Source: Cyanobacteria bacterium SBLK
GTDB lineage: Bacteria > Cyanobacteriota > Cyanobacteriia > Cyanobacteriales > Spirulinaceae
Direction of reading: 5' to 3'
Assembly (NCBI GenBank): GCA_017746715.1
Contig: JAGHZQ010000026.1
Coordinates: 1 to 64,000, forward strand
DNA length: 64,000 nt
The notes under the pieces were generated by a model that saw nothing but the letters and a program-made list of their open reading frames with translations, was not told the DNA's origin and did not search any database. The position numbers and the translations under genes are program-made. This document shows positions 1 through 15,216 of this stretch, piece by piece (the stretch's first letter is position 1; each line of letters starts with the position of its first letter).

Positions 1-1992
1 GAAAGGTGCAAAGTCGGCAACCCCTGCTAAAGGTTCGGCGATCGCACCATCTCTGACCCCATTTTGGTTGAGGTCTTCTTCCGGTTCAAACTCCCCATCG
101 CCATTGCTATCCGGCTCTCCTAAGAGATCGATGCGATCGAACAAAACGGGATCGGCATCGCGAAAATCGAGGAAAGGATAGCGATCGCCACCATCGGCAA
201 GATAGCTGAGCGTAATTGCCCGAAATGTGCGATAGCGATCGCCGACGAGTTCCCCCTCTCGCGCAACGATATCAAACTCGCCATCCCCGGTCACGACGAC
301 AGAAAGAACGCGATCGCCCGGTTCGCGATCGGGATCGAAGCTAAACTGCAAACCCCCCACTTGGGGAAATTGGCCGGGGGTTGCACCGGGAGCCGTTCCC
401 GAAACTCCATGTTCGAGGGTTTGTAACAGTTGTTCTGCCGTGAGGGTAATCAAAGTGAGTCCGTTGTTGAAGCGGAGAGAGTTGTTGATATCGAGTTCGG
501 ACACTTCTCCTTCTTCCTTACCTGCTTCTGGGTTGGCTTCTGGGGGCAACAGTTCGAAGTCATCGGGATCGGTGCCGCCGCTTGCTGCATTGATAATCCC
601 GATATTGGAACGGATGCCGCCCCCATTTTTCAAAGCAATCCGCGTCGTTGCATCGATCGCCTTAGCATAGGCAAGATCGGCATCGGCACTGATATCTCCC
701 AAATTGGTTTCTTCTGTGCGGACATAGGCGCGATCGCCTCGCAGGAATACCGTCGTGTTACCAAAAATGTTTCCATCCTGAGTGGCGATGACATCGTGGA
801 GGGCATCGGTAATCGCAACGATATCGGGATCCGGCGTGCCTCCCGTGGCAGTCACGCCCTCGTCGTCGGTGGCGTAGGCTCCGCTAATGTTGGGGTCGAT
901 ACTGTCGGGAATGATGAGACCGTTGGCATCAAAATCAATGACCAAGCGACCGACATAGGTGTAATTGGCTTTCGTGTTGACGACGGCGATGGGGTTGCCA
1001 TCCGCATCGGTTTTGAGAATGGGATAGGGTCCGGCACTCGTATCGCCAGCACGGAGGCGATCGCTTTCATCGGAGAGTAGAATGTGGGATCCTCCGGCAA
1101 CGATAATATCCACATCTCGCAGCCTAGAGGCGAGTTCGTCCTGCTCGATATACAATTGCTGCATGTGAGAGAGAAGAATGATTTTATCGATTCCCGTTGC
1201 GGTTAACTCGTCTACCCCGGCCTGAATATCGGCGGCAAGAGCATCGTAATCTTCGGCATTTTCGGGGAGTACGCTCACGTCACCCGAGGCGGCGATCGCG
1301 GGTAATAACGGCGTTGTTGCTCCCACAATGCCAATCTGTTCGCCGCCAACCGTCGCGATCGCCCATCCCGCTAATTGTCCGGCTTCTAGGGTGTCAATCT
1401 CTTGTCCGTTTTCCGTTACCCGATCTGCCAATTCGGGATCCGTGGCAAAATTTAAGTTGGCACTCAAATAAGGAAACAATGTCCCTTGATAGTCCCCGGA
1501 AGGTCGAATGATGTTGCTGACTTCTTTTGTTCCCAGATCGAAATCGTGGTTGCCAAAGGTAGAGGCTTGGATGCCGAGTCGGTTGTGGATTTCGATATTA
1601 GCGTGACCGATGCCAGCTTTACCGACGGGGGTATCGTTTATACTCGGGTCGCCACTGGCAAACAAGAAGGGACTGGGAATGTAGTTATCCCCAGAGGAAA
1701 GGATCAAGGTGTTGGGATAGTCGTCTTTGAGGGCGTTGAGGACGGCAGAAAAGCGAGGCGCATCCTGCAAGGCTTCTAAGCCGGCTTCAAAGTCGGAGGC
1801 GTGGAGGAGTTGCAGGGTAAAGGTTGTGGCATCCGAGTCGGTCGTGATGACGGATATGCCCAACCCTTTCAAGAAATCGAATAAGTTCCATGCTGCCGCT
1901 GGAGGGACGGCGATATTCAAAAAGAAGGCGATCGCGATCGCAAACATGGCGATCGCTTTCAATATTCGTTGCAACAGGCCATTTAAAAACAT
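1..1992 (-). CDS. Bifunctional metallophosphatase/5'-nucleotidase (UshA-like), 3' end cut by window edge
   Basis: Extracytoplasmic nucleotidase-type phosphoesterase; 664 codons are visible and the gene continues past base 1. The ATG at 1992 has GATGAGG upstream and is followed by a hydrophobic signal-like N-terminus ending near AAAW. The metallophosphatase domain shows LLHASDFEAG (metal-ligand strand, around residue 62) and GNHDFD (around residue 146). The C-terminal 5'-nucleotidase domain shows NGGGIRSN (around residue 450) and then FNNGLTLITLTAEQLLQ. The family normally hydrolyses nucleotides or nucleotide sugars outside the cytoplasm to release phosphate and nucleosides. The last visible part is acidic (an SNGDGEFEPEEDLNQNG stretch resembling a calcium-binding dockerin/EF-like loop). 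It lies downstream of the deiminase genes on the same strand, but a gap of about 315 bp argues for its own promoter. Confidence 0.88.
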   Translation of the reverse strand, partial: MFLNGLLQRILKAIAMFAIAIAFFLNIAVPPAAAWNLFDFLKGLGISVITTDSDATTFTLQLLHASDFEAGLEALQDAPRFSAVLNALKDDYPNTLILSSGDNYIPSPFLFASGDPSINDTPVGKAGIGHANIEIHNRLGIQASTFGNHDFDLGTKEVSNIIRPSGDYQGTLFPYLSANLNFATDPELADRVTENGQEIDTLEAGQLAGWAIATVGGEQIGIVGATTPLLPAIAASGDVSVLPENAEDYDALAADIQAGVDELTATGIDKIILLSHMQQLYIEQDELASRLRDVDIIVAGGSHILLSDESDRLRAGDTSAGPYPILKTDADGNPIAVVNTKANYTYVGRLVIDFDANGLIIPDSIDPNISGAYATDDEGVTATGGTPDPDIVAITDALHDVIATQDGNIFGNTTVFLRGDRAYVRTEETNLGDISADADLAYAKAIDATTRIALKNGGGIRSNIGIINAASGGTDPDDFELLPPEANPEAGKEEGEVSELDINNSLRFNNGLTLITLTAEQLLQTLEHGVSGTAPGATPGQFPQVGGLQFSFDPDREPGDRVLSVVVTGDGEFDIVAREGELVGDRYRTFRAITLSYLADGGDRYPFLDFRDADPVLFDRIDLLGEPDSNGDGEFEPEEDLNQNGVRDGAIAEPLAGVADFAPF

Positions 1993-2308
1993 GGGTAAAA
2001 CCTCATCAAAAAGAAGGTTGACAAAATTAGGATTTTGCAATTAACCACGCCTAGTATAAGCACGAATCCTCTATTTGGAAAAGTTGCCGAACTTAAAAAT
2101 ATGTTGAATTTTGTTAGATTCTCGCTTTTTGACTGAATATCAAATCCGGATAATTGTCCGAACTGCTGGGAATCCTATCAAACATGGGGCGATCGCGCTG
2201 CCATATTGACAAACGCGATCGCCCTTTAATTATCTCGGTTTTTCATCGCTGCTGACGAACGAGTTTAATCGATAACTGCGATCGCTACAGGCCAAAACCT
2301 TTCACTGA

Positions 2309-3802
2309 TTACGATTCTCCACGAGATAAAACTTGGGTGGTACAATGAGCGGCTCCGTATCCAAGTTTCAGATTGTCAAAGGGGATCTCTTCTACCGTTA
2401 GCCCTGCATTCCTCAGATCTTCTAGATAGTCTGGATAGTATGGGTTCTCATCAGATCCCTCTACAACAGCAATTACGCCTTCTTCCAGAGTGAGAAAGTT
2501 AATGCCATAATCTTCTTGATTTTTGACTGAGACTGGAATGATGTTTTCAAAGCCTGCGTCGCTGAGTACGTCTATAAATTCTAGATATTCATTGTCTGTT
2601 CGCAGACAATACTCACCATGCGTCCAACCAGAACAAGAATCCACATTGCGCTCCCAGACATCAGCCGTTAAGCACTTGTCTACAACACCGTCATCCGTTT
2701 CAACTTCGCTACAGTCTACACCGGGAACGATCCCAGCGGGAAAGCGATCTTCAACGAGAACGGCTGTTGTTGGACTCGCAATATTAAAATAGGTGTCTAG
2801 ATGCATTTCCTGCTGGTTTTGCCACAGATCCTTGACAACAACCACTTCTTGAACATTCGCACCAAAAACATCTTCCTCTGCGTCTAGCATCTCGTAGATC
2901 GCTTCATAAGTTGTCCGTGCACCCTGACCGATAAAAACGCGCTCCCCAGCTGGAATAAAATCACCTCCCTCTAAGACAGACCGATCTCCCGTTATCGTAT
3001 AGATTGGAGTAATGTTTAAATCGTCCAGAACCACCTCGATGATTTTCGTTTCGTTTGCACGCTGCGAATCGCTCATCTTACCGACAACGACACCATTAGC
3101 AGTTGTAATCATCTGATCGCGGGTGAAATACATATTCATCAGAGGGTCTATCTGATATTCTGCGACGACATTATAAGACCCTTCGCCACAGTTTGCATAG
3201 TTGTCACTTGGATCGGTGCACGCCAATGATTTGATTTGAGCTTGGTTCAGAACCATCCAAACTAGTATAGATGGATCTGTTGTCATTAGGGTGTCTAAAT
3301 TCCTTCGAAAATAATCTTTTTGTTCTTCGCACGCCTCCGAATCTTCAAAACTCATCTCCACTACACTGTCATCCATATCCACACAATCAAAGTCATCTAA
3401 TCCCAGAGTTGTGACTAAATCACGTAAGGTGCCGGGATTTTGACGCAGAACGCGAGCAACTTGAAGGACTTCAATATCGCGATCTTTCAGCTTTTGTACG
3501 TATTGAATATGTTCCTTAGCTGCCTGCTTGGTATTGAATGGCTCTTCAAATAAAGCCGCTTCTGGATGGAGTATGCCAGCAAATAGCTCATTTCGGGGGG
3601 TATGTACCAAGATTGTTTGAGCGGTATCCCACTCTGCGGCGGAGCCTGGTGTAATCTGCCCTTGTTGAACTGGGTTAATCAAACTATTCTCTCGCGCGCT
3701 GGCAGGAAGAGCATTCCAGAACAGGCTCGAGGCAAGGATTAACATAGCGGCTGCAAAGGCTACAACCCTAGTTAAACGATTCAATACATCAGGCACGGGC
3801 AT
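2309..3802 (-). CDS. Secreted arginine deiminase-like (ArcA/guanidino-group-modifying superfamily) protein
   Basis: 497 residues. I start at the ATG at 3802 because GAAGGAGA sits just upstream; a GTG 15 bases earlier lacks a site. Residues 1-40 are a signal peptide (basic, hydrophobic AAAMLILASSLFWNA, then PASARE). The order of motifs follows arginine deiminase: ILVHTPRNEL, YFTRD (Asp), QRANET (Arg), LEGGD (Glu), MHLDTYF (His and Asp) and the C-terminal AAHC with the nucleophile Cys. In bacterial ArcA the segment before the Cys reads RGRGGGHC and carries an Arg that binds the substrate carboxylate; here it is KLGYGAAHC. The substrate may therefore differ from free arginine. Several extra cysteines between residues about 115 and 410 fit disulfides outside the cytoplasm. 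It would act in the periplasm or be secreted, converting a guanidino group to a ureido group plus ammonia. Confidence 0.8.
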   Translation of the reverse strand: MPVPDVLNRLTRVVAFAAAMLILASSLFWNALPASARENSLINPVQQGQITPGSAAEWDTAQTILVHTPRNELFAGILHPEAALFEEPFNTKQAAKEHIQYVQKLKDRDIEVLQVARVLRQNPGTLRDLVTTLGLDDFDCVDMDDSVVEMSFEDSEACEEQKDYFRRNLDTLMTTDPSILVWMVLNQAQIKSLACTDPSDNYANCGEGSYNVVAEYQIDPLMNMYFTRDQMITTANGVVVGKMSDSQRANETKIIEVVLDDLNITPIYTITGDRSVLEGGDFIPAGERVFIGQGARTTYEAIYEMLDAEEDVFGANVQEVVVVKDLWQNQQEMHLDTYFNIASPTTAVLVEDRFPAGIVPGVDCSEVETDDGVVDKCLTADVWERNVDSCSGWTHGEYCLRTDNEYLEFIDVLSDAGFENIIPVSVKNQEDYGINFLTLEEGVIAVVEGSDENPYYPDYLEDLRNAGLTVEEIPFDNLKLGYGAAHCTTQVLSRGES

Positions 3803-4393
3803 AATTGTCTCCTTCACGGGTATTCAACAGAGTTAATAAATTGTTCTTAAGTTCTGAAGCGCCCCATCTAGGCGCGAATAAGTGAGCAAACGTACTGACG
3901 GGATAAAACAGTTTATGGATCAGTTCAAACTTCGCTCAAACAAAACTATATTTCACTATGGTGTTAATGTCAATATATAAGTTTAAAAATATTGAGAATA
4001 AGAGAATATGTTTCTTTTTGTTAACGTACCCAAATAATTTATACTAAAGTAATATGAAAATCTGGTAATAGATAAAAATTCAATTTGATACCTTGATTGT
4101 GTGCTATTCTCAATCATTATCAACTTAAGAGATCTCTCCGATAATTAGGGTAAAACCCTGATGATGCCTTGCCTAAACTTGAATCTCTGGAGAGGTCTAA
4201 TCCAGAAAAACAGATGAAACGCTTTTTAAACAGCTTTCAATCTTTACCGTCCGTACAACTGGTTTTGATGGCGTATCCGGTAGCGATCGCATTGACTCTT
4301 CTATCAGATGCGATCGCGCTGGCTAACCGAGAATCATGAGGGTGCGATCGCAAAAGCAATTCACACTCAACGGACTCCACTTTAAGACATTGA
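3803..4393. other. AT-rich intergenic region between two deiminase genes
   Basis: About 590 bp with no strong gene. The part next to the secreted deiminase (3840-4120) is very AT-rich and should hold its promoter. A short plus-strand reading frame at 4214-4339 is listed separately. Confidence 0.5.
4214..4339 (+). CDS. Possible 41-residue hydrophobic small protein
   Basis: Reads MKRFLNSFQSLPSVQLVLM and continues through a hydrophobic stretch (YPVAIALTLL) to a stop at 4339, so a single membrane segment is possible. GGAGAGG lies about 17 bases before the ATG, rather far for a ribosome site. No family recognised; it could be chance coding around two HIP1 sites. Confidence 0.22.
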   Translation: MKRFLNSFQSLPSVQLVLMAYPVAIALTLLSDAIALANRES

Positions 4394-5791
4394 TTACCGC
4401 TTGGGTACAACTCGTTGAGTTAAACTCTTCAACCAGTTATCCACAATTTCTCGGGGAACGCTACGGGTGCGACAGTGAAGCGCGTCAGTCCCCAACCAAG
4501 GCAGTTCGGGTTTACCGATAATGCCAACAACCGTGTAGTCACTACCCAGTGCCCCTCGGTAGGCCTCGAGCGCATTCTCATCGTCTTCTGCGTGGTCTCC
4601 TCCTACGATAGGAACATAGACATAGTTGTTGAGAATGAGGCTATTGGTATAAGGAGCAGTAGTCGGCTCGATGTCATAGAGCCCCGTAGTCGAGCGACCG
4701 ATGAGGATATTCGGGCAGAACACTCGAGTGACATGAAAGCCCTGCTCTTCAAAAAAGTCCGCAATGTCATCGTATGCGTCATTAATCTTCCTGTTTGGCG
4801 ACTCGGCAATGATAATCTTGTCATCAGCAAGAAATTTAGCCCAGCAGTCGATATGCCCGATGTAGGTTCCCGAGGGATCGGTGATGACGTGATACTTCGT
4901 GGTTCCCATAAAGCGATTGAACTGCCCCAGAATGTATTTCATCCGATCTTCAATGGTACTGGAGCTGGGATTATCTTCGTTTTCACGTTGATCGTCCACG
5001 GGAAGCTCATTTTGGGTAGCTACTAAATAGGAAGAGGCAACAACATTATTTGAAGTAGACATGTAGTTGCCACCAACATTAAGAAGCCCTGTATTGTACC
5101 AATTATGATCCTTAATAGGAGCGAGTTTTTGCCTGCCCCATCGTGCCTCATTCCACGCTCGAATGGGGACATTGAGATAATCGGAAAATTTAGTGGCAGC
5201 GTAGTCATCGTTAGGCCGAAAAATGCCCCCACCACCTTCTAGGAAAACATCTTCAGATCCTTGTACCAACCCTACAGAACCTCCTCCCAGAGAGGTATAG
5301 AGATGCTTGGCAATACCAAAGTAACCTGTTGTCTCATTCTTGACCCACCAAGGTCCATAATCTCGCGTCCAGTAACTATCTGTGTCCCATAAAACAAAGT
5401 GGATTAAATTGGGATCGAAATCAAGCTCTTCAGCTTCTGCTGTTGCCCTTAGATCGGCAATCACTTCACTTCGTTGAGAAAAATCGGCGCACAAGATAAA
5501 GATATGAACCGGCTCGCGATCGCCATTATTGACTTGCTGCATGCGGACAATCAAGTCGTTGGGAATCCCAAAGGTGCGCGCTCCGGATGGTGGCAATTGA
5601 ACCTGTGAAGTGGTCTCGGTTCCGGGATAGGCAATTAAAACACCTCCCATCTCCTCATATTCGGCAACGGCTCTTACTGGAGATTCTCCCTCAGATTCAT
5701 ATGTCTCGATTTTATCGGGAGCCTTGCATCGAGTTAATTTCTTGAACAAAGATGCTAGTTCGCCTGGGTGTAGTTTGCGATGATTCAACAT
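4394..5791 (-). CDS. Peptidyl-arginine deiminase (PPAD/agmatine deiminase family)
   Basis: 465 residues; ATG at 5791 with AAAAAGGT upstream. The fold family (PF04371 type) is shown by TRDYGPW (catalytic Asp), HIDCWAKF (catalytic His and Asp), YTNSLILNN (Asn) and DALHCRTRSVP (nucleophile Cys). The Asp-His-Asn-Cys set with an ALHCRT context is closer to the Porphyromonas gingivalis peptidyl-arginine deiminase than to agmatine deiminases, whose Cys motif normally reads GNIHC. The expected reaction is hydrolysis of a guanidino group (peptidyl-arginine or a small guanidine) to a ureido group plus ammonia. No signal peptide is visible, so this copy looks cytoplasmic, unlike the neighbouring ArcA-like protein. 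It lies 325 bp downstream of the pyruvoyl decarboxylase on the same strand. Confidence 0.85.
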   Translation of the reverse strand: MLNHRKLHPGELASLFKKLTRCKAPDKIETYESEGESPVRAVAEYEEMGGVLIAYPGTETTSQVQLPPSGARTFGIPNDLIVRMQQVNNGDREPVHIFILCADFSQRSEVIADLRATAEAEELDFDPNLIHFVLWDTDSYWTRDYGPWWVKNETTGYFGIAKHLYTSLGGGSVGLVQGSEDVFLEGGGGIFRPNDDYAATKFSDYLNVPIRAWNEARWGRQKLAPIKDHNWYNTGLLNVGGNYMSTSNNVVASSYLVATQNELPVDDQRENEDNPSSSTIEDRMKYILGQFNRFMGTTKYHVITDPSGTYIGHIDCWAKFLADDKIIIAESPNRKINDAYDDIADFFEEQGFHVTRVFCPNILIGRSTTGLYDIEPTTAPYTNSLILNNYVYVPIVGGDHAEDDENALEAYRGALGSDYTVVGIIGKPELPWLGTDALHCRTRSVPREIVDNWLKSLTQRVVPKR

Positions 5792-6116
5792 GAGTTACCT
5801 TTTTAGAGTGACAATTGACTTAGATTAAAACTTTTGATCGATTAATGGAGTACAAATAAAATTCGATACCCCGTTAAACTTTAAGGTATCTCTTACTATT
5901 CATAACTGTCAAGTTCTTTTTTAAATACTACGATCGTTCAAACAATGACATTAAAGAACCTTATGAGTTCAGTAGGGCGAGATCTCTAACCTACTTATCA
6001 ACATCCGAACAGCGATCGCACTATTGAGTATAAAACTAAAAAAAGGAAGAGCGATCGCGATTCTGAATAGTGTCGGGAAAGACAGAGGAGAAGCGATCGC
6101 CAGGCAGACGAGGAAT
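5792..6116. other. Intergenic region with a dispersed repeat
   Basis: 325 bp between the pyruvoyl decarboxylase stop and the PPAD-like start. The half near 5800-5960 is AT-rich and is the likely promoter area for the PPAD-like gene. The rest is dominated by the 60-bp repeat at 6041-6100. Confidence 0.5.
6041..6100 (+). repeat. 60-bp HIP1-bounded dispersed repeat, copy 1
   Basis: Aligns without gaps to 25931-25990, both ending in GCGATCGC and sharing a central TTCTGAAT and TCGGGAAAGA. Both sit between genes and translate to the same short peptide pattern (AIAILN..GKDRG.AIA), which produces spurious small reading frames. Confidence 0.7.
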
Positions 6117-7274
6117 TCACTCAGATCGAAACGAAACCCGATGCAAGAAATCATTGCTTTTGGATTGTCTCAACTTCCCGACTCCTTCATCGGGATTCAA
6201 CAGAAAGCCAATTTGTTGACCTTGCAGGAGATTGAGTGAGGGAAATCGACCGGCTTCAAACAGCAGAATATTCAAAGAGCCGCCATACTGGAAATAGCCG
6301 ATCGCTTCCCCTTTCGCGATCGCGATCGGTTGGGTGTCGGTGACGTGCTTGAACTTGTCGCGAAACACCACTGAAGCAATGGTCGTCAGTCCTACAGGAA
6401 CAACCCCAACATGACCGTAACGCTCTGTTTTGATGACCAGATAGCCCCGACGAAAACGCTCGAAGGCAACACCAAAATACTCGCCGGAAACATCTTCCTT
6501 GGCCTCAACAACCTTGCCAGACACGGGAGCGTGGTAGTGGTGATAAGAATGGGGCTTGAGAATGCAAAAAACAGCCGTACCGCCATCAAAATACCGCATG
6601 TACTGGGAGTCATTTAATAGCTCCCTCACATTCAAATAGGAGGTCTTGACGAGAAATTTAGTATCCTGCGTCAGGTTCTCAACTGTATAAATCATGCAAT
6701 CTGCCGGAGCTACCACAACCGAATCGTCCTCTGGCGATGCGATCGCTCTCGCATCGGGTTTGATTTTGCGGCTAAAAAACTGATTGAAATTGTTAAAGCC
6801 GTAATGTCCTGCCGGATTGGTCGGTTCTGGGATAATATACTGTTGCGAAACCTTGTGAATTCCACCGAGATCCTCAACCCAAGCATGAATTAAGGCCGCA
6901 CTCTCGGGAGAATCGAAGTATTCCCCCCGTATGGCGACAAAGTGTTTGGTCATTTCATAACCCGCCCCTTTGGTAACAAAGGCCCGTCCATACTCGTTCT
7001 GGTAATACAGCCAGCCGAACTTGCGGATGTAATCCAAACCCGTTGGCATTTCGGGAAGCCAAGCATACCATTCGTCAAAGAACGAGCACAGATCGTCGAT
7101 GCTTTTGTTTCTCCAGTCATATCGAATATCGCGATCGGTGTCTTCTGGAATGGGTTTGACATTTTCTATGGCTGCATCGAAGAAGGTTCGAAACCCTCGA
7201 TAGTCATCGCGATACCATTGACGCACCCGAGCGGTAAACTCTTTTATGGTTTGCGGGGCTGTTTCTGCTGACAT
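6117..7274 (-). CDS. Pyruvoyl-dependent decarboxylase, phosphatidylserine decarboxylase family (PsiD-like)
   Basis: 385 residues from the ATG at 7274, which has AAAGGAGAAG just upstream; an upstream in-frame extension has no ribosome site. The C-terminal PSD domain shows APADCMI (Asp about 192), KPHSYHHYHAP (His about 248) and GGSLNILLFEAG, where autocatalytic cleavage before Ser about 333 would leave a pyruvoyl group on a small alpha chain of about 53 residues. A long N-terminal helical part (about 1-150, rich in W, Y and F) precedes it, as in PSD-family enzymes that act on soluble amino acids (fungal tryptophan decarboxylase PsiD). There is no membrane anchor. I infer an amino-acid rather than a phospholipid substrate from this architecture and from the neighbours: 38 bp after the small helical protein and in line with the PLP decarboxylase. 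Confidence 0.82.
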   Translation of the reverse strand: MSAETAPQTIKEFTARVRQWYRDDYRGFRTFFDAAIENVKPIPEDTDRDIRYDWRNKSIDDLCSFFDEWYAWLPEMPTGLDYIRKFGWLYYQNEYGRAFVTKGAGYEMTKHFVAIRGEYFDSPESAALIHAWVEDLGGIHKVSQQYIIPEPTNPAGHYGFNNFNQFFSRKIKPDARAIASPEDDSVVVAPADCMIYTVENLTQDTKFLVKTSYLNVRELLNDSQYMRYFDGGTAVFCILKPHSYHHYHAPVSGKVVEAKEDVSGEYFGVAFERFRRGYLVIKTERYGHVGVVPVGLTTIASVVFRDKFKHVTDTQPIAIAKGEAIGYFQYGGSLNILLFEAGRFPSLNLLQGQQIGFLLNPDEGVGKLRQSKSNDFLHRVSFRSE

Positions 7275-7312
7275 GCACTTCTCCTTTTTTTTCAAGTGAT
7301 GGACTGACCGGC

Positions 7313-7804
7313 TCAAACACCTCCAGGCTCGGGCAGGGGATACTGTAACTCGGCAATCATGGCCTCGAGGGAAGCCGCATTCGGCCCGGTACTTTCTAGC
7401 TCCAACCACGTGAGAATGGCAGTCTCGTGCTGAATCATCGATTTCGTTACCTCTCGATCTTCGGGAGGAGCAGCGAGATCTATCTCCTGAAACCGATCCA
7501 AAAATGCCTCAACCGTGGGCTTTGTTATCGTTGCAAACTCCGCAAAGGTCGCCGAATTTTGATAGTCTGCCACTGCATCGTCTACATCGCTCAAATCCAT
7601 ATCCTCCAAAAGTGTCATCCCGTATTTGTAGAGAAACGGTCGCAAGCGTGCTTTGGTTTCCGTCTCCAGTTGCAACAGCGTATCGAAATGATAGCGATCG
7701 CGATCGTTCTTCGCCACCGCAATCAATGCCAAAGCCCAAGCCTCGCCAAAAATTTCGCTTTCGTAAAGCTCCCGAATTGCCTCCGGGTATGCTACATCGG
7801 CCAT
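7313..7804 (-). CDS. Small all-helical protein, possibly ferritin-like
   Basis: 163 residues, ATG at 7804 behind GAGGAGAA. It appears entirely helical with acidic and His-containing helices: ELYESEIFGEAWALAL near the start, YHFDTLLQLETETKARL in the middle, and HETAILTWLELE near residue 130. The spacing of Glu and His residues is reminiscent of ferritin-like four-helix bundles, some of which are diiron oxidases, but I cannot trace a complete ExxH set. It sits between the two decarboxylase genes (170 bp after one, 38 bp before the other), so it is probably co-transcribed and works in the same pathway, as an oxidase, a sulfur/iron carrier or a structural partner. Confidence 0.72.
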   Translation of the reverse strand: MADVAYPEAIRELYESEIFGEAWALALIAVAKNDRDRYHFDTLLQLETETKARLRPFLYKYGMTLLEDMDLSDVDDAVADYQNSATFAEFATITKPTVEAFLDRFQEIDLAAPPEDREVTKSMIQHETAILTWLELESTGPNAASLEAMIAELQYPLPEPGGV

Positions 7805-7973
7805 GATGTTCTCCTCTGAAATAACTTAAGATCTCGCACCATTCGTTATTGCACCCATAGCAGTTTGCAGAGATCGGGTTGACGCAAAAGAACGCCATGC
7901 GATCGCGGTTTTCAGCACGACAACCCAACCATTTTTCGCCCTCGAGGGATAACGAGGAGCGAAACAGTCACTT

Positions 7974-9962
7974 TTATTTCTTGCGGCGACGTTTTTTCAA
8001 GCGCTTTAACCCTTTCTTCGATTGCCGTCCGATACCCGACAGCAAATTATCCGAGGTAGCGGATGCCTCCTCGGTCGCGTTAGAACCACATTCCACGGGA
8101 CGGATATCCTTGAACTTAGAATAAGGCACCGGACAATTGCCCGCATCATCCCGAGCGTCGGGCACCGTGCCGGCTTCGATCGCATCCCGAGCCTGTAACA
8201 CCAACCGCAGCAGATCGTCCATCACCTCATAGGTCACGTTGACATTCATCGGATAGGACTTCACTGCATAGATGAATCCGGGTTCGATATTTTCATCCTC
8301 ATAGTCCGTGGGACGGAAACCACTGGTATAGCTGATGTAGGGGGCATAATCATCTCCGGGTTTTTCCTGCGGGAAGCGATACCACTGCCAGAGCAGATCG
8401 GCGATATCTTCTTGCAGTTTGTTATTGGCCTCGAGTTCTGCCTTTGCAGCCGGATCCGTAAGTTCCCGTTGATACTGCGTTACCGCATCTACCCCTTTTT
8501 TATAGACTCGGAATAAGGTCACGAATCCGTGGTCTGAGTCGTTAACGCAAACTGCCGTCGTTTCCTTGGCGATCGCCTCATCTCGGAAATAGTGCTGAAT
8601 TTCTAGAATGCCTCCCAAAATGGAGCGGAAGCCTTCTGCACCCATGAACTTCAGGGTCGCCCAAGCTGCCATGGAGTAAGCACCGGTACGAGAGACCTCT
8701 AAGGTATAGAGACCGGGATTGTAACAAGTGCGCGCTTGCAGATAAGCAGAACCCGGACGGCTCATCAGTTCTTGAAAGTGATTCAGCTTTTTCACCATGA
8801 CGACGCTGCAATTATAAGTAGACCAGCCGGTCTTATGGAAATCGCAGCCGATGGCATCGGCATGAACCATCTTGCTGATAGCATTATAGTTTGCTTGGAT
8901 CTCTTGCTTGACATCATCGGCAAAACCGAGAGTATTCGCATCAAAGTCATAACCCTTGAAGGTGAGCCAAGACCAACCAATTACCGCATCGGCATAAATC
9001 AAAGGTCGTCCTGCACCGTCGGGATACTCCGAGAGAGGATAGAGACGATCGACTAATTCTCGCACTTCTTCGATCGGGTCGAGGGCAAAGGCATCGGTGG
9101 TTCCCATGGTGCAAACAATGGCAGCGATCGGCACTTTTGCTTCCTTGAGGTTCGTCACCACCTCGGTCAGGTGCTCCATATCCATGGCATTGTTTTCATC
9201 GGTGTCGATCTCGACATAGTTATTCATGCCCAGACCGGTCCAGTCGCTGGAGTTCTGTTTGCAATAATGACCCTGCTGGGACATCAAGATTTTGGCATCC
9301 GTGCGAATCCCCGTACAGCGAGATTTATCTCCCAAGCAATTAGTGAGGGCATACTTGATGCCGTAGAAATAGCACCCGGAGCCGCCAAAAGTGAATAGAC
9401 CCCCCGCCACGTTAGGATCCCAGCCGATTAAATCTGCCAGAATTGCCGAGGTTTCCATTTCCGTCCGTTCGACATCCCAAGCATATTCCCCTTCGATAAT
9501 GTTGGGGCTAAAAACGTTGGTCATCATGGCAGTAATAATCGCTGCCGTGTTGGCTTGGGGAATCACATTTGGCATCACTAAGGGATGGTTCCAAGCGGGC
9601 ATACCGATGAATAGCTGGGCTGCCTGTTCCAGCACATCTTTCACGGGGAGCATTTCGTCTCCCAACTTAACCCCTGTAACGCCACTATAATCGGGGCTGG
9701 AAATATTGCCGGGTTCGCCGATAATTTGGTCGCCGATCAGGTAGCCCGGGGTGGAGGAAGGGTCAGATTCCGCAGTCCCGACCGGTTTGAGTTTGTTGAG
9801 ATAGCCGATCGCTTCTCCCACCATATCGGCAAAGGGATCCGAACCGGTGGTGTAATAGTAAGTCGGGAAGGCTTCGCGCATATTGGCACGCAAGCTGGCC
9901 CATCGGGGTGCGTCGCCTTTTGCACTCCCATCTTTATTCCACAACGAAGAACGAGAAGGCAT
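7974..9962 (-). CDS. PLP-dependent group II amino-acid decarboxylase
   Basis: 662 residues, ATG at 9962 with GTAAGGAG upstream. It belongs to the glutamate/aromatic amino-acid/diaminobutyrate decarboxylase family. The Schiff-base lysine lies in GCDFHKTGW (Lys about 377); upstream are the cofactor segment CTMGTTDAFALDPI and the IYADAVIGWSW strand, and the active-site entrance has GGSGCYFYGIKYAL. It is longer than the usual 470-550 residues and ends in a strikingly basic tail (about 20 residues, mostly Lys and Arg), which may bind membrane, nucleic acid or a partner. The substrate cannot be read from sequence. It is the first gene of the decarboxylase set; a hairpin and two palindromes lie within 105 bp upstream. 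Confidence 0.88.
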   Translation of the reverse strand: MPSRSSLWNKDGSAKGDAPRWASLRANMREAFPTYYYTTGSDPFADMVGEAIGYLNKLKPVGTAESDPSSTPGYLIGDQIIGEPGNISSPDYSGVTGVKLGDEMLPVKDVLEQAAQLFIGMPAWNHPLVMPNVIPQANTAAIITAMMTNVFSPNIIEGEYAWDVERTEMETSAILADLIGWDPNVAGGLFTFGGSGCYFYGIKYALTNCLGDKSRCTGIRTDAKILMSQQGHYCKQNSSDWTGLGMNNYVEIDTDENNAMDMEHLTEVVTNLKEAKVPIAAIVCTMGTTDAFALDPIEEVRELVDRLYPLSEYPDGAGRPLIYADAVIGWSWLTFKGYDFDANTLGFADDVKQEIQANYNAISKMVHADAIGCDFHKTGWSTYNCSVVMVKKLNHFQELMSRPGSAYLQARTCYNPGLYTLEVSRTGAYSMAAWATLKFMGAEGFRSILGGILEIQHYFRDEAIAKETTAVCVNDSDHGFVTLFRVYKKGVDAVTQYQRELTDPAAKAELEANNKLQEDIADLLWQWYRFPQEKPGDDYAPYISYTSGFRPTDYEDENIEPGFIYAVKSYPMNVNVTYEVMDDLLRLVLQARDAIEAGTVPDARDDAGNCPVPYSKFKDIRPVECGSNATEEASATSDNLLSGIGRQSKKGLKRLKKRRRKK

Positions 9963-12097: not shown

Positions 12098-13078
12098 ATG
12101 CCCATGCCTTCATTCCGTTTTATCGCCCCTCGCAAATTCTTCATCACCGCACTGTGCGGTTTAGCAACGGGGGTGCTAATGGCTTGCAGCGAGCCCCAAT
12201 CCTCCGTTAACACCGCAGATATCCGCGAAACCACAGCCAGCGATCGTTCGCAGCTGAAAGGCGAACCCGTGCGCTTTGGGGTTCTGAGCATCGATAGCGC
12301 CGTATCCGTCAACGAGCGGTATCGTCCCCTTTTGGACTATTTGGAAGCCGAACTGGAACGACCGTTCGAGCTCATTTCTCTAACTCAAGAGAGCCAATTT
12401 ACCGAAGTCGAAGCGGGAAATTTAGATTTCACTACCAACAACCCCTTGGCTGCCGTACAAATCCGCCGTCTCCACGATACCGAGTTTTTGGTCACTCACA
12501 GCCGTCCCAAAACCGGCCCCCAGTTTAGCGGTTTGATTGTCGTGCGGGCCGATAGCGAGATTAAAACCCTAGAACATCTTCGAGGAAAACGAGTGAGTTG
12601 CGTGAACTTCCAGACGGCGGCGGCAGGTTGCGTTTTTCAAATTTATCACCTCCAGCAAAACGGCATCGATCCAGCTCGAGATTTTGCCGATTTTACCGAA
12701 AATAAATCCCAAGACAGTATTGTTTTAGCCGTCATTAACGGCACGATCGATGCGGGTTTCATTCGTACGGGACAACTCGAAAAGATGGTGGGCAAAGAAT
12801 TGATTCCCAATGTGAATGTTTTGCGGGTTCTCGCGCCAGTCGATGACAATTTTCTCTATACTCATACCACGGCATTGTATCCGGAGTGGCCGATCGCGGC
12901 CCTGCCTCAAACCGATTCGGAACTGGCAGAACAAGTGCGAGAAGCCCTGTTAAATATTCCTCCCGATCACCCTAGTTTAAAACCCGCAAAAGTAGAAGGA
13001 TTCATTCCTACCGTTTCCTACGACGACCTAGATAGCTTGGTAGAAACACTTAAACTTAAAAGCTGGGATTCAAAGTGA
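12098..13078 (+). CDS. PhnD-like substrate-binding lipoprotein
   Basis: 326 residues, GGTGAGG directly upstream. Lipoprotein signal: FITALCGLATGVLMAC, with the lipobox LMAC. The mature part follows the phosphate/phosphite/phosphonate binding-protein pattern: RFGVLSIDSA, YRPLLDYLEAELERPFEL, a conserved LRGKRVSCVNFQTAAAG and INGTIDAGFIRTG. In cyanobacteria such genes commonly sit beside histidine kinases without any ABC permease, and here the next gene is a transmembrane hybrid kinase 89 bp downstream. I infer a periplasmic sensor subunit for that kinase rather than a transporter part. The ligand is unknown. Confidence 0.85.
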   Translation: MPMPSFRFIAPRKFFITALCGLATGVLMACSEPQSSVNTADIRETTASDRSQLKGEPVRFGVLSIDSAVSVNERYRPLLDYLEAELERPFELISLTQESQFTEVEAGNLDFTTNNPLAAVQIRRLHDTEFLVTHSRPKTGPQFSGLIVVRADSEIKTLEHLRGKRVSCVNFQTAAAGCVFQIYHLQQNGIDPARDFADFTENKSQDSIVLAVINGTIDAGFIRTGQLEKMVGKELIPNVNVLRVLAPVDDNFLYTHTTALYPEWPIAALPQTDSELAEQVREALLNIPPDHPSLKPAKVEGFIPTVSYDDLDSLVETLKLKSWDSK

Positions 13079-13167
13079 TATAATTAGCGTACCTTTTTTA
13101 AGGATCTCATTCGATCGCATTTTTCTCATTACCTCAATTCCATCCCTCAATTTTTTCCTTCTCAGCC

Positions 13168-15216
13168 ATGTCTTCTCTGTTTCCTCGGTTCGCCTCCCTG
13201 CGCCAAAGTATTGCTTTTCGCTATCTCGGCATTGCCTGTGGAGTTTTAGTGAGCACTCAGGTTGCCTTGGGGTTAATTCAAGCTCGCAGTCAATTTCACG
13301 GGGGATTGAAAGCGCTCGAACAAAAAGCAGACAAGCAAACGCAATTTTTGAGTGCCGTCGTGCCGGAAGCCTTATTGGATATGGATTTTCTGGCGATGGA
13401 AATCCTCATGCGCCAGTCGGGACGCGATCGCGATTTTGTCTACTCGGTCATTCTCGATCGCCAAGGTACGCCCTTAACTCGCTATCTCGATCGCGAACAT
13501 CCCTCCATCGCCCGCGCCTTGGAAACCCAAGGGATCGATCTCGAAGCAACCAGTTTGCAGGGGGAAGAAATGCTGAACCTCCTCGAAGCGATTGAAGAAA
13601 ATGCCAATCTCGCGATTGTGGAAAAGCCGATCGTCTCCGGGGAAACGTTTTTGGGAAAAGCGGTCTTGGGCTATTCTCTGGAGAATGTGAGGCGACAGCT
13701 TTACTGGCAGGCAGGATTGATTTTGCTCGAGGCGATCGCCGCCAGCGGACTCTTGGCGATCTTAACGGCAGTGCTCTTCAACCGCCAAGTGCGGCGACCC
13801 CTCCATCGCTTGGCCTCCGCCGCGCAACAATTTGCCGAGGGGGATTTGGAACACCGCGCCCGAGTGGGAGAGGGCGATCGCAATGATGAGGTGGGACGGC
13901 TGACCAAATCCTTTAATAAGATGGCCGATCGCTTGCAAAATACCCTAGAGGGCTTGCAAGAACGCAATCGCACCCTCGCCTTTACCAATGCGGAACTGGC
14001 GAGGGCGACGCGACTCAAGGATGAATTTCTCTCTAATATGAGTCACGAGTTGCGAACCCCCCTCAATGCCGTCTTGGGTCTCTCCCAAGCGCTCAAAGAA
14101 AAAGTTTACGGACCGCTAACAGAACGCCAAGAACTCTCCCTCGATCGCATCCTTACGAGCGGCCAGCACCTCCTCTCCCTCATCAACGATATTTTGGATT
14201 TGGCAAAAATAGAATCGGGGAAAGAAGAGTTACAAATCGTTCCCCTGCCCGTTTCGATTCTCTGTCAAACCTGCTTGGATTTGGTGCGTCGCATGGCAGA
14301 AGAAAAACATCTCGAATTGACCCTCGAGGTGGAAGTCATCCCCAATGTTTTTGCCGTAGACGAGCGGCGCATTCGGCAAGTGCTGTTAAATTTACTCAAC
14401 AATGCCATTAAATTTACCCCCGAAGGCGGCAGCATCGCCGTCACGGCCCGGGGCGATCGCGACGAACAGGTGCTGCGAATTGCCGTGCGGGATACGGGGA
14501 TCGGCATCGCCCGAGAGGATATGAGCAAGCTCTTTGAGTCTTTCGTACAGATCGAAAGCAGCCTCTCGCGCCGTTATGAAGGAACGGGGTTGGGGTTGGC
14601 ATTGGTACGGCGTTTGGTGGAACTTCACGGCGGTTCCATCGCCGTCGAAAGCGAAGTGGGTAAAGGCAGTTGTTTTACCGTGGTTCTCCCTTGGCGCAAC
14701 CCGGAACAACTCGCCCCCGCGGACAAAGATCGCTTAGCCGGAGCGATCGGCACGATTCCCGAGTCGATTTTAGCAACGCCCCCCGACATCAAAATTCCCG
14801 CTCCTCCGGACGGAGAATACTTAATTTTGATTGCCGAAGATAATGAAAATAACGTCATGATGCTGGCGGATTATTTGACCTTTAAAGGCTACAAATTAGC
14901 CTTTGCCAAAAATGGTTTGGAAGCGGTCAGTTTAGCGAAAGAGACCAAACCCCAATTAATTTTAATGGACATCCACATGCCGCGCATGGATGGTTTAGAG
15001 GCGACCCGTTGGATTCGCTCCGATCGAGAGACCTCCGATGTTCCCATCATCGCCCTGACTGCCCTGGCCATGCCCGGCGATCGCGAAAAATGCAAAGAAG
15101 CCGGCCTCGACGATTACATCACCAAACCCGTGAACCTAGAGCGACTGCTCCAGCGCATTCATGTCGTTCTCAATCCCGAAAATTCCGAGGTGGAATCCTC
15201 CGCGCCAAGCCTCTAA
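13168..15216 (+). CDS. Transmembrane hybrid histidine kinase (HAMP-HisKA-HATPase-REC)
   Basis: 682 residues. TM1 at about 15-35; a periplasmic domain of about 140 residues; TM2 at about 180-205 (LILLEAIAASGLLAILTAVL); HAMP at about 206-258; HisKA with phospho-acceptor His 293 in SHELRTPLN; HATPase with NLLNNAIKFTPEGG, DTGIGI and GTGLGLALV; a C-terminal receiver with Asp 601 in ILMDIHMP. It probably senses through the PhnD-like lipoprotein and passes phosphate to the following soluble receiver-kinase. All genes to 25156 are on the same strand with short gaps. Confidence 0.93.
   Translation: MSSLFPRFASLRQSIAFRYLGIACGVLVSTQVALGLIQARSQFHGGLKALEQKADKQTQFLSAVVPEALLDMDFLAMEILMRQSGRDRDFVYSVILDRQGTPLTRYLDREHPSIARALETQGIDLEATSLQGEEMLNLLEAIEENANLAIVEKPIVSGETFLGKAVLGYSLENVRRQLYWQAGLILLEAIAASGLLAILTAVLFNRQVRRPLHRLASAAQQFAEGDLEHRARVGEGDRNDEVGRLTKSFNKMADRLQNTLEGLQERNRTLAFTNAELARATRLKDEFLSNMSHELRTPLNAVLGLSQALKEKVYGPLTERQELSLDRILTSGQHLLSLINDILDLAKIESGKEELQIVPLPVSILCQTCLDLVRRMAEEKHLELTLEVEVIPNVFAVDERRIRQVLLNLLNNAIKFTPEGGSIAVTARGDRDEQVLRIAVRDTGIGIAREDMSKLFESFVQIESSLSRRYEGTGLGLALVRRLVELHGGSIAVESEVGKGSCFTVVLPWRNPEQLAPADKDRLAGAIGTIPESILATPPDIKIPAPPDGEYLILIAEDNENNVMMLADYLTFKGYKLAFAKNGLEAVSLAKETKPQLILMDIHMPRMDGLEATRWIRSDRETSDVPIIALTALAMPGDREKCKEAGLDDYITKPVNLERLLQRIHVVLNPENSEVESSAPSL

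Follow-up and report, generated by a model that had tools for sequence, protein, structure and literature searches.

A recurring decarboxylase-deiminase gene pair within a mosaic locus of a Spirulinaceae cyanobacterium

Neighboring genes for two decarboxylases and two deiminases on one strand of a cyanobacterial genome raise the question of whether they form a single pathway or have been brought together from different sources. The genes concerned lie at positions 2309-9962 of the window, by which we mean the whole stretch of 64,000 nucleotides analyzed here, at the start of contig JAGHZQ010000026.1 of Cyanobacteria bacterium SBLK (Spirulinaceae), and an earlier note on this DNA had proposed that all of them serve one arginine-derived or aromatic amine pathway. 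Five intact open reading frames (ORFs) were confirmed in this interval, all on the minus strand, which encode, in reading order, a pyridoxal phosphate (PLP) decarboxylase, an orphan all-helical protein (HEL), a pyruvoyl decarboxylase of the phosphatidylserine decarboxylase fold (PSD), a deiminase resembling the Porphyromonas gingivalis enzyme PPAD, and an exported, ArcA-like arginine deiminase (ADI). ORF positions, family scans and catalytic motifs (intact in all four enzymes) agree with the families originally named. The answer that we favor, with a probability of roughly 45%, is that the locus is a mosaic in which PSD and the PPAD-like enzyme act as a pair, decarboxylating and then deiminating arginine or a relative, a chemistry that we infer.

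Taken as a set, the five genes do not recur. Seventeen genomes yielded homologs of the PLP decarboxylase (13 cyanobacteria, one SAR324, one Chromatiales and two Parabeggiatoa); no PSD, PPAD or ADI gene ever adjoins them there, HEL occurs only in Symploca, and ADI is absent altogether. The earlier note had named a lack of co-occurrence outside this strain as the outcome that would refute its idea; for the five as a set, these 17 genomes gave that outcome, and a conserved five-gene cluster was rejected on them.

Nor is the locus complete as first delimited, since a sixth gene for a secreted 5'-nucleotidase-like protein (NUC, 1..2040, minus strand) follows ADI and is cut at the contig edge, window position 1 being the start of this contig (C38). 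The first 92 bases of another contig of the same genome (C118) are an exact match to the C38 end (window positions 1..92, no strand assigned), and the NUC frame crosses the join to give 732 aa in unbroken alignment to Okeania and Moorena homologs. On this evidence, which comes from sequence and not from reads, the C38 locus continues into an island on C118 that includes sulfatases, a HAD protein, an alkyl sulfatase, two AraC regulators and a gene for a formylglycine-generating enzyme (FGE). Gaps from the PLP decarboxylase through NUC measure 169, 35, 325, 576 and 268 nt in order, of which only that between HEL and PSD is tight, so that the layout does not demonstrate a single operon.

Comparison with Symploca SIO1C2, which holds the nearest relative of the PLP decarboxylase (91% identity) in the order PLP decarboxylase, HEL, sulfatase, FGE, separates the locus into two parts. 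At the DNA level, the joined island is collinear with Symploca over the PLP decarboxylase and HEL (85 and 83%), then over sulfatases (81%) and FGE (70%), while ~22 kb directly after HEL have no match at the corresponding place. This block holds PSD, the PPAD-like gene, ADI, NUC, further sulfatases and the HAD, AraC and alkyl sulfatase genes, so that the PLP-HEL and PSD-PPAD-ADI parts have different histories. The simplest reading is that the block was inserted beside PLP-HEL, a loss in Symploca being also possible. The locus is therefore a mosaic: it includes a secreted-sulfatase island (sulfatases, FGE, AraC regulators, 5'-nucleotidase and HAD) whose left end consists of the PLP decarboxylase and HEL.

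Within this mosaic, two genes recur together. The only other PPAD-like match in the genomes searched came from Candidatus Parabeggiatoa sp. nov. 1 (65% identity); apart from these two genomes, none was found in 292 genomes of the cyanobacterial phylum, 391 of the order, 43 of the Parabeggiatoa order or the 16 other genomes with the PLP decarboxylase, nor in plasmids or viral contigs. On the Parabeggiatoa contig (L055), a PSDC-PSD gene of the PsiD type lies directly upstream of the PPAD homolog, in the same strand and order as in the window; downstream come genes for a C69 dipeptidase and a C45-type Ntn hydrolase. The PSDC-PSD gene and the PPAD homolog are each the sole match in this 8.8-Mb genome at the thresholds used, so that we estimate the odds of a chance adjacency at about one in several thousand. 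The Parabeggiatoa decarboxylase matches the PsiD-type enzyme at 1e-78, which assigns it by homology to a free amino acid decarboxylase family. A PSD-type decarboxylase followed by a PPAD-like deiminase is thus a recurring two-gene unit, and the earlier idea of amine or guanidine chemistry, which fails for the five genes as a set, holds up for this pair only. On the favored reading, the pair would have been acquired horizontally. Filamentous gliding bacteria, giant sulfur oxidizers and cyanobacteria among them, have been proposed to exchange genes (PMC6390638). A literature search, with most subscription papers outside its reach, returned no description of either the pair or the sulfatase/decarboxylase island.

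The window PSD (6117..7274, minus strand, 385 aa, with a likely start at 7274 from its ribosome-binding site) is a clear member of its family (PS_Dcarbxylase PF02666, 9e-39, 133.6 bits against a cut-off of 22), with the self-cleavage motif GGSL (in YGGSL), the His of HHYHAPVSG and the Asp of PADC all in place. It falls short of the TIGR00163 phosphatidylserine decarboxylase equivalog cut-off (79.9 vs. 111.75 bits), and, since to our knowledge cyanobacteria make no phosphatidylserine-derived lipids, an ordinary function of this family is unlikely. Its best solved relative is the PsiD-type L-tryptophan decarboxylase (PSDC-PSD, 9e-10), with which it shares the GGS cleavage motif but not the PSDC domain (PF12588), undetected here even at E 10. 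That domain is likewise absent from the Okeania (55-59% identity) and Embleya (44%) homologs, and present in the PSD-type proteins of Parabeggiatoa and Enterobacter. Viral contigs held no PSD homolog, and the Embleya neighborhood, GC-rich and unannotated, yielded no resolved neighbors. On plasmid pUPC1 of Enterobacter cancerogenus (L047:4154-6954), a related PSDC-PSD decarboxylase gene adjoins one for a basic amino acid/polyamine antiporter, for which the Arg/Orn and His/histamine models score best. The two likely form a decarboxylation-antiport unit with a pyruvoyl enzyme, and the antiporter points to a basic amino acid as the substrate, in favor of such a substrate for the pair as well.

The deiminase (4394..5791, minus strand, 465 aa; PAD_porph PF04371, 3e-14) has P. 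gingivalis PPAD as its best solved relative (7e-34 against the PDB entry, 2e-39 by profile). Its catalytic residues are D144, H313, D315, N383 and C440, and the equivalents of PPAD W127, D130, Y233, H236, D238, C239, N297 and C351 (residue list from PMC4487231) are conserved, among them the catalytic Cys, His and Asn and the pair of Asp residues that binds the guanidine. The Parabeggiatoa homolog retains the catalytic set too. It differs from PPAD in a long extra segment before RPNDD, in that no signal peptide was seen, and in the apparent loss of R152. In PPAD, this arginine binds the C-terminal carboxylate of the substrate and is essential for activity on C-terminal peptidyl-arginine (PMC4487231). 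Read by motif next to the insertion, with the PPAD sequence context taken from mutagenesis primers printed in the same paper, the R152 position appears to be occupied by Ile190 in the window protein and by Ile also in the Parabeggiatoa homolog, two positions before the R154 equivalent that both retain in their RPND motif. An isoleucine at this position would suit a substrate without that carboxylate, i.e., a decarboxylated one, and the apparent lack of a carboxylate clamp, together with the adjacent decarboxylase gene, suggests that the deiminase acts on the decarboxylated product.

We thus propose that PSD would decarboxylate a basic amino acid in its free form, with arginine or a near relative as the most likely candidate, and that the PPAD-like enzyme would then hydrolyze the guanidino group of the amine so formed, releasing ammonia; both the substrate and the order of the two steps are inferred. 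For arginine, the second step would be the conversion of agmatine to N-carbamoylputrescine, as in agmatine deiminase, while the PLP decarboxylase would serve another substrate. This logic resembles the arginine decarboxylase/agmatine deiminase route to putrescine, whose deiminase shares both its superfamily (PAD_porph/agmatine deiminase) and its catalytic triad with the one here. However, the decarboxylase is a PSD-fold pyruvoyl enzyme, not a PLP enzyme or PvlArgDC, and the deiminase falls far under the curated cut-off for agmatine deiminase (AguA; 21 vs. 483 bits). If the proposal is true, guanidine-derived amines can be made in an independently assembled way, and a PPAD-type enzyme, hitherto described mostly as a virulence factor that citrullinates proteins, can serve small-molecule metabolism. 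A testable sign would be a deiminase that lacks the carboxylate-binding arginine and is encoded beside a decarboxylase. The more specific claim, that a PSD-fold arginine decarboxylase and a PPAD-descended deiminase without carboxylate clamp constitute an independently evolved agmatine-type route in mat-forming cyanobacteria and giant sulfur bacteria, strikes us as doubtful.

Several observations weigh against the proposed pair chemistry. Outside the window, the pair is known from one instance, in a draft metagenome-assembled genome (MAG) where it lies on a contig of 8 kb, and in the window its two genes are separated by the wide gap of 325 nt noted above. At about 31% over 200 aa, the two PSD enzymes fall into different subfamilies, so that what is kept seems to be the role and not the precise gene, and the Okeania PSD homolog has no deiminase beside it. 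PsiD-type enzymes of known substrate act on tryptophan, and no N-carbamoylputrescine hydrolase was seen in the locus. The R152 position was reached by motif across an insertion and not from a solved alignment, and by overall profile the deiminase is much nearer to PPAD (2e-39) than to agmatine deiminase (8e-5), so that a peptide substrate is still conceivable.

Other explanations are less probable. The block could be chance cargo, in which genes for scavenging (those of the exported deiminase, the nucleotidase, the sulfatases and HAD) were collected independently of one another and PSD and the PPAD-like enzyme have unrelated roles. This would fit the large gaps, a strong promoter-like site that ADI has to itself, the absence of ADI from 292 cyanobacterial genomes as well as from the 17 genomes above, and the Okeania PSD without its deiminase, but it leaves the Parabeggiatoa arrangement, where, out of thousands of genes, one of PSD type is found directly upstream of PPAD with order and strand unchanged, as a coincidence, and we consider it rather unlikely. 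A peptide route, in which the PPAD-like enzyme would citrullinate a peptide at an arginine, be it C-terminal or internal, and the product would be processed by the decarboxylase or neighboring hydrolases, draws on the profile similarity to peptidylarginine deiminase, on the retained Y233 and R154 equivalents, and on the dipeptidase and Ntn hydrolase genes in Parabeggiatoa. Yet R152, without which PPAD cannot act on the C-terminal arginine of peptides (PMC4487231), is apparently lost, no signal peptide was seen on the PPAD-like protein, and no precursor peptide turned up (none was searched for), which makes this route improbable in our view.

A single pathway of all five genes is, finally, very unlikely. 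The genes are neighbors on one strand with only 35 nt between HEL and PSD, a PLP decarboxylase homolog is encoded in the Parabeggiatoa MAG that carries the pair, and Okeania SIO2C9 has both PLP and PSD homologs, each time on different contigs. Against this stand the collinearity of PLP-HEL with the sulfatase island in Symploca, where the other genes are missing, the lack of any five-gene or PLP-PSD-PPAD neighborhood in the 17 genomes, and the restriction of PPAD to the source genome among those of its order.

The ADI gene (2309..3802, minus strand, with a likely ATG start at 3802 from its ribosome-binding site and an ORF extending to 3817; ADI PF02274, 2e-43) has its strong promoter-like site at 3973-3945. 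As in ArcA, the motifs FTRD, LEGGD, HLDT and HC are intact, and the residues for free arginine align. Unlike ArcA, the protein seems to be exported (Sec-type signal peptide, read by eye), lies far under the TIGR01078 equivalog cut-off (101.5 vs. 489.1 bits) while passing that of Pfam, and has as its nearest homologs found plasmid proteins of 22-27% identity. Separately from the pair, it may thus release ammonia from external arginine, converting it into citrulline. Such an extracellular step, also suggested earlier, is possible, with no comparative support.

The PLP decarboxylase (7974..9962, minus strand, 662 aa, group II) matches Pyridoxal_deC (PF00282) at 2e-15 and 56.9 bits against a cut-off of 27, with H232, D325 and the Schiff-base lysine K377 (in CDFHKTGW) invariant. 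These Lys, Asp and His residues are shared with L-2,4-diaminobutyrate and tyrosine decarboxylases, its nearest solved relatives (2qma and 7cwx), but the enzyme is far under every curated cut-off and belongs to an uncharacterized group II subfamily of its own, with a C-terminal extension. Its AlphaFold model was poor (pLDDT 64) and not used. Homologs lie amid sulfatases in four cyanobacteria (Symploca, Okeania, Microseira and Moorena), together with FGE in the first three, a nucleotidase in Okeania and Moorena, and a HAD protein in Microseira and Moorena. In two Crocosphaera MAGs (L005:7519-11947, L006:7387-11947), genes for SHMT, a sarcosine/dimethylglycine N-methyltransferase-like protein and the PLP decarboxylase are consecutive, a row that fits a path from serine through ethanolamine to methylated amines and, as a lead only, makes the enzyme a candidate serine decarboxylase feeding ethanolamine/choline methylation. 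The sulfatase/FGE islands and the SHMT and N-methyltransferase neighborhoods thus give separate substrate leads for this subfamily. In Paraprochloron terpiosi (L007:7247-11953), a TyrDC-like decarboxylase gene lies upstream of a broken, stop-bearing copy.

HEL (7313..7804, minus strand, 163 aa) has no sequence match in Pfam, NCBIfam or the PDB and no copy in the 292 cyanobacterial genomes; its sole other copy, in Symploca (90% identity), likewise directly follows the PLP decarboxylase. Its AlphaFold model (mean pLDDT 76) has ferritin-like proteins as best Foldseek matches, all weak (E > 0.2).

In the island on C118, four of the five sulfatases carry the Cys-type CxPxR motif that is the FGE target. 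The NUC leader (window:1-2040) and sulfatase genes on L042 and L044 share repeated start-region DNA at roughly 70-90% identity, as if leaders had been duplicated or recombined within islands. A second sulfatase island of the same genome (L044:5810-16497, contig C66) has a DUF1254/DUF1214 protein gene between its sulfatase genes. At the right end of the first island, just past the FGE gene, lies an IS605 OrfB-type transposase gene (L043:1738-3003), and beside the island, in the window (12098-15216), a gene for a divergent PhnD-like binding protein is followed by one for a sensor kinase.

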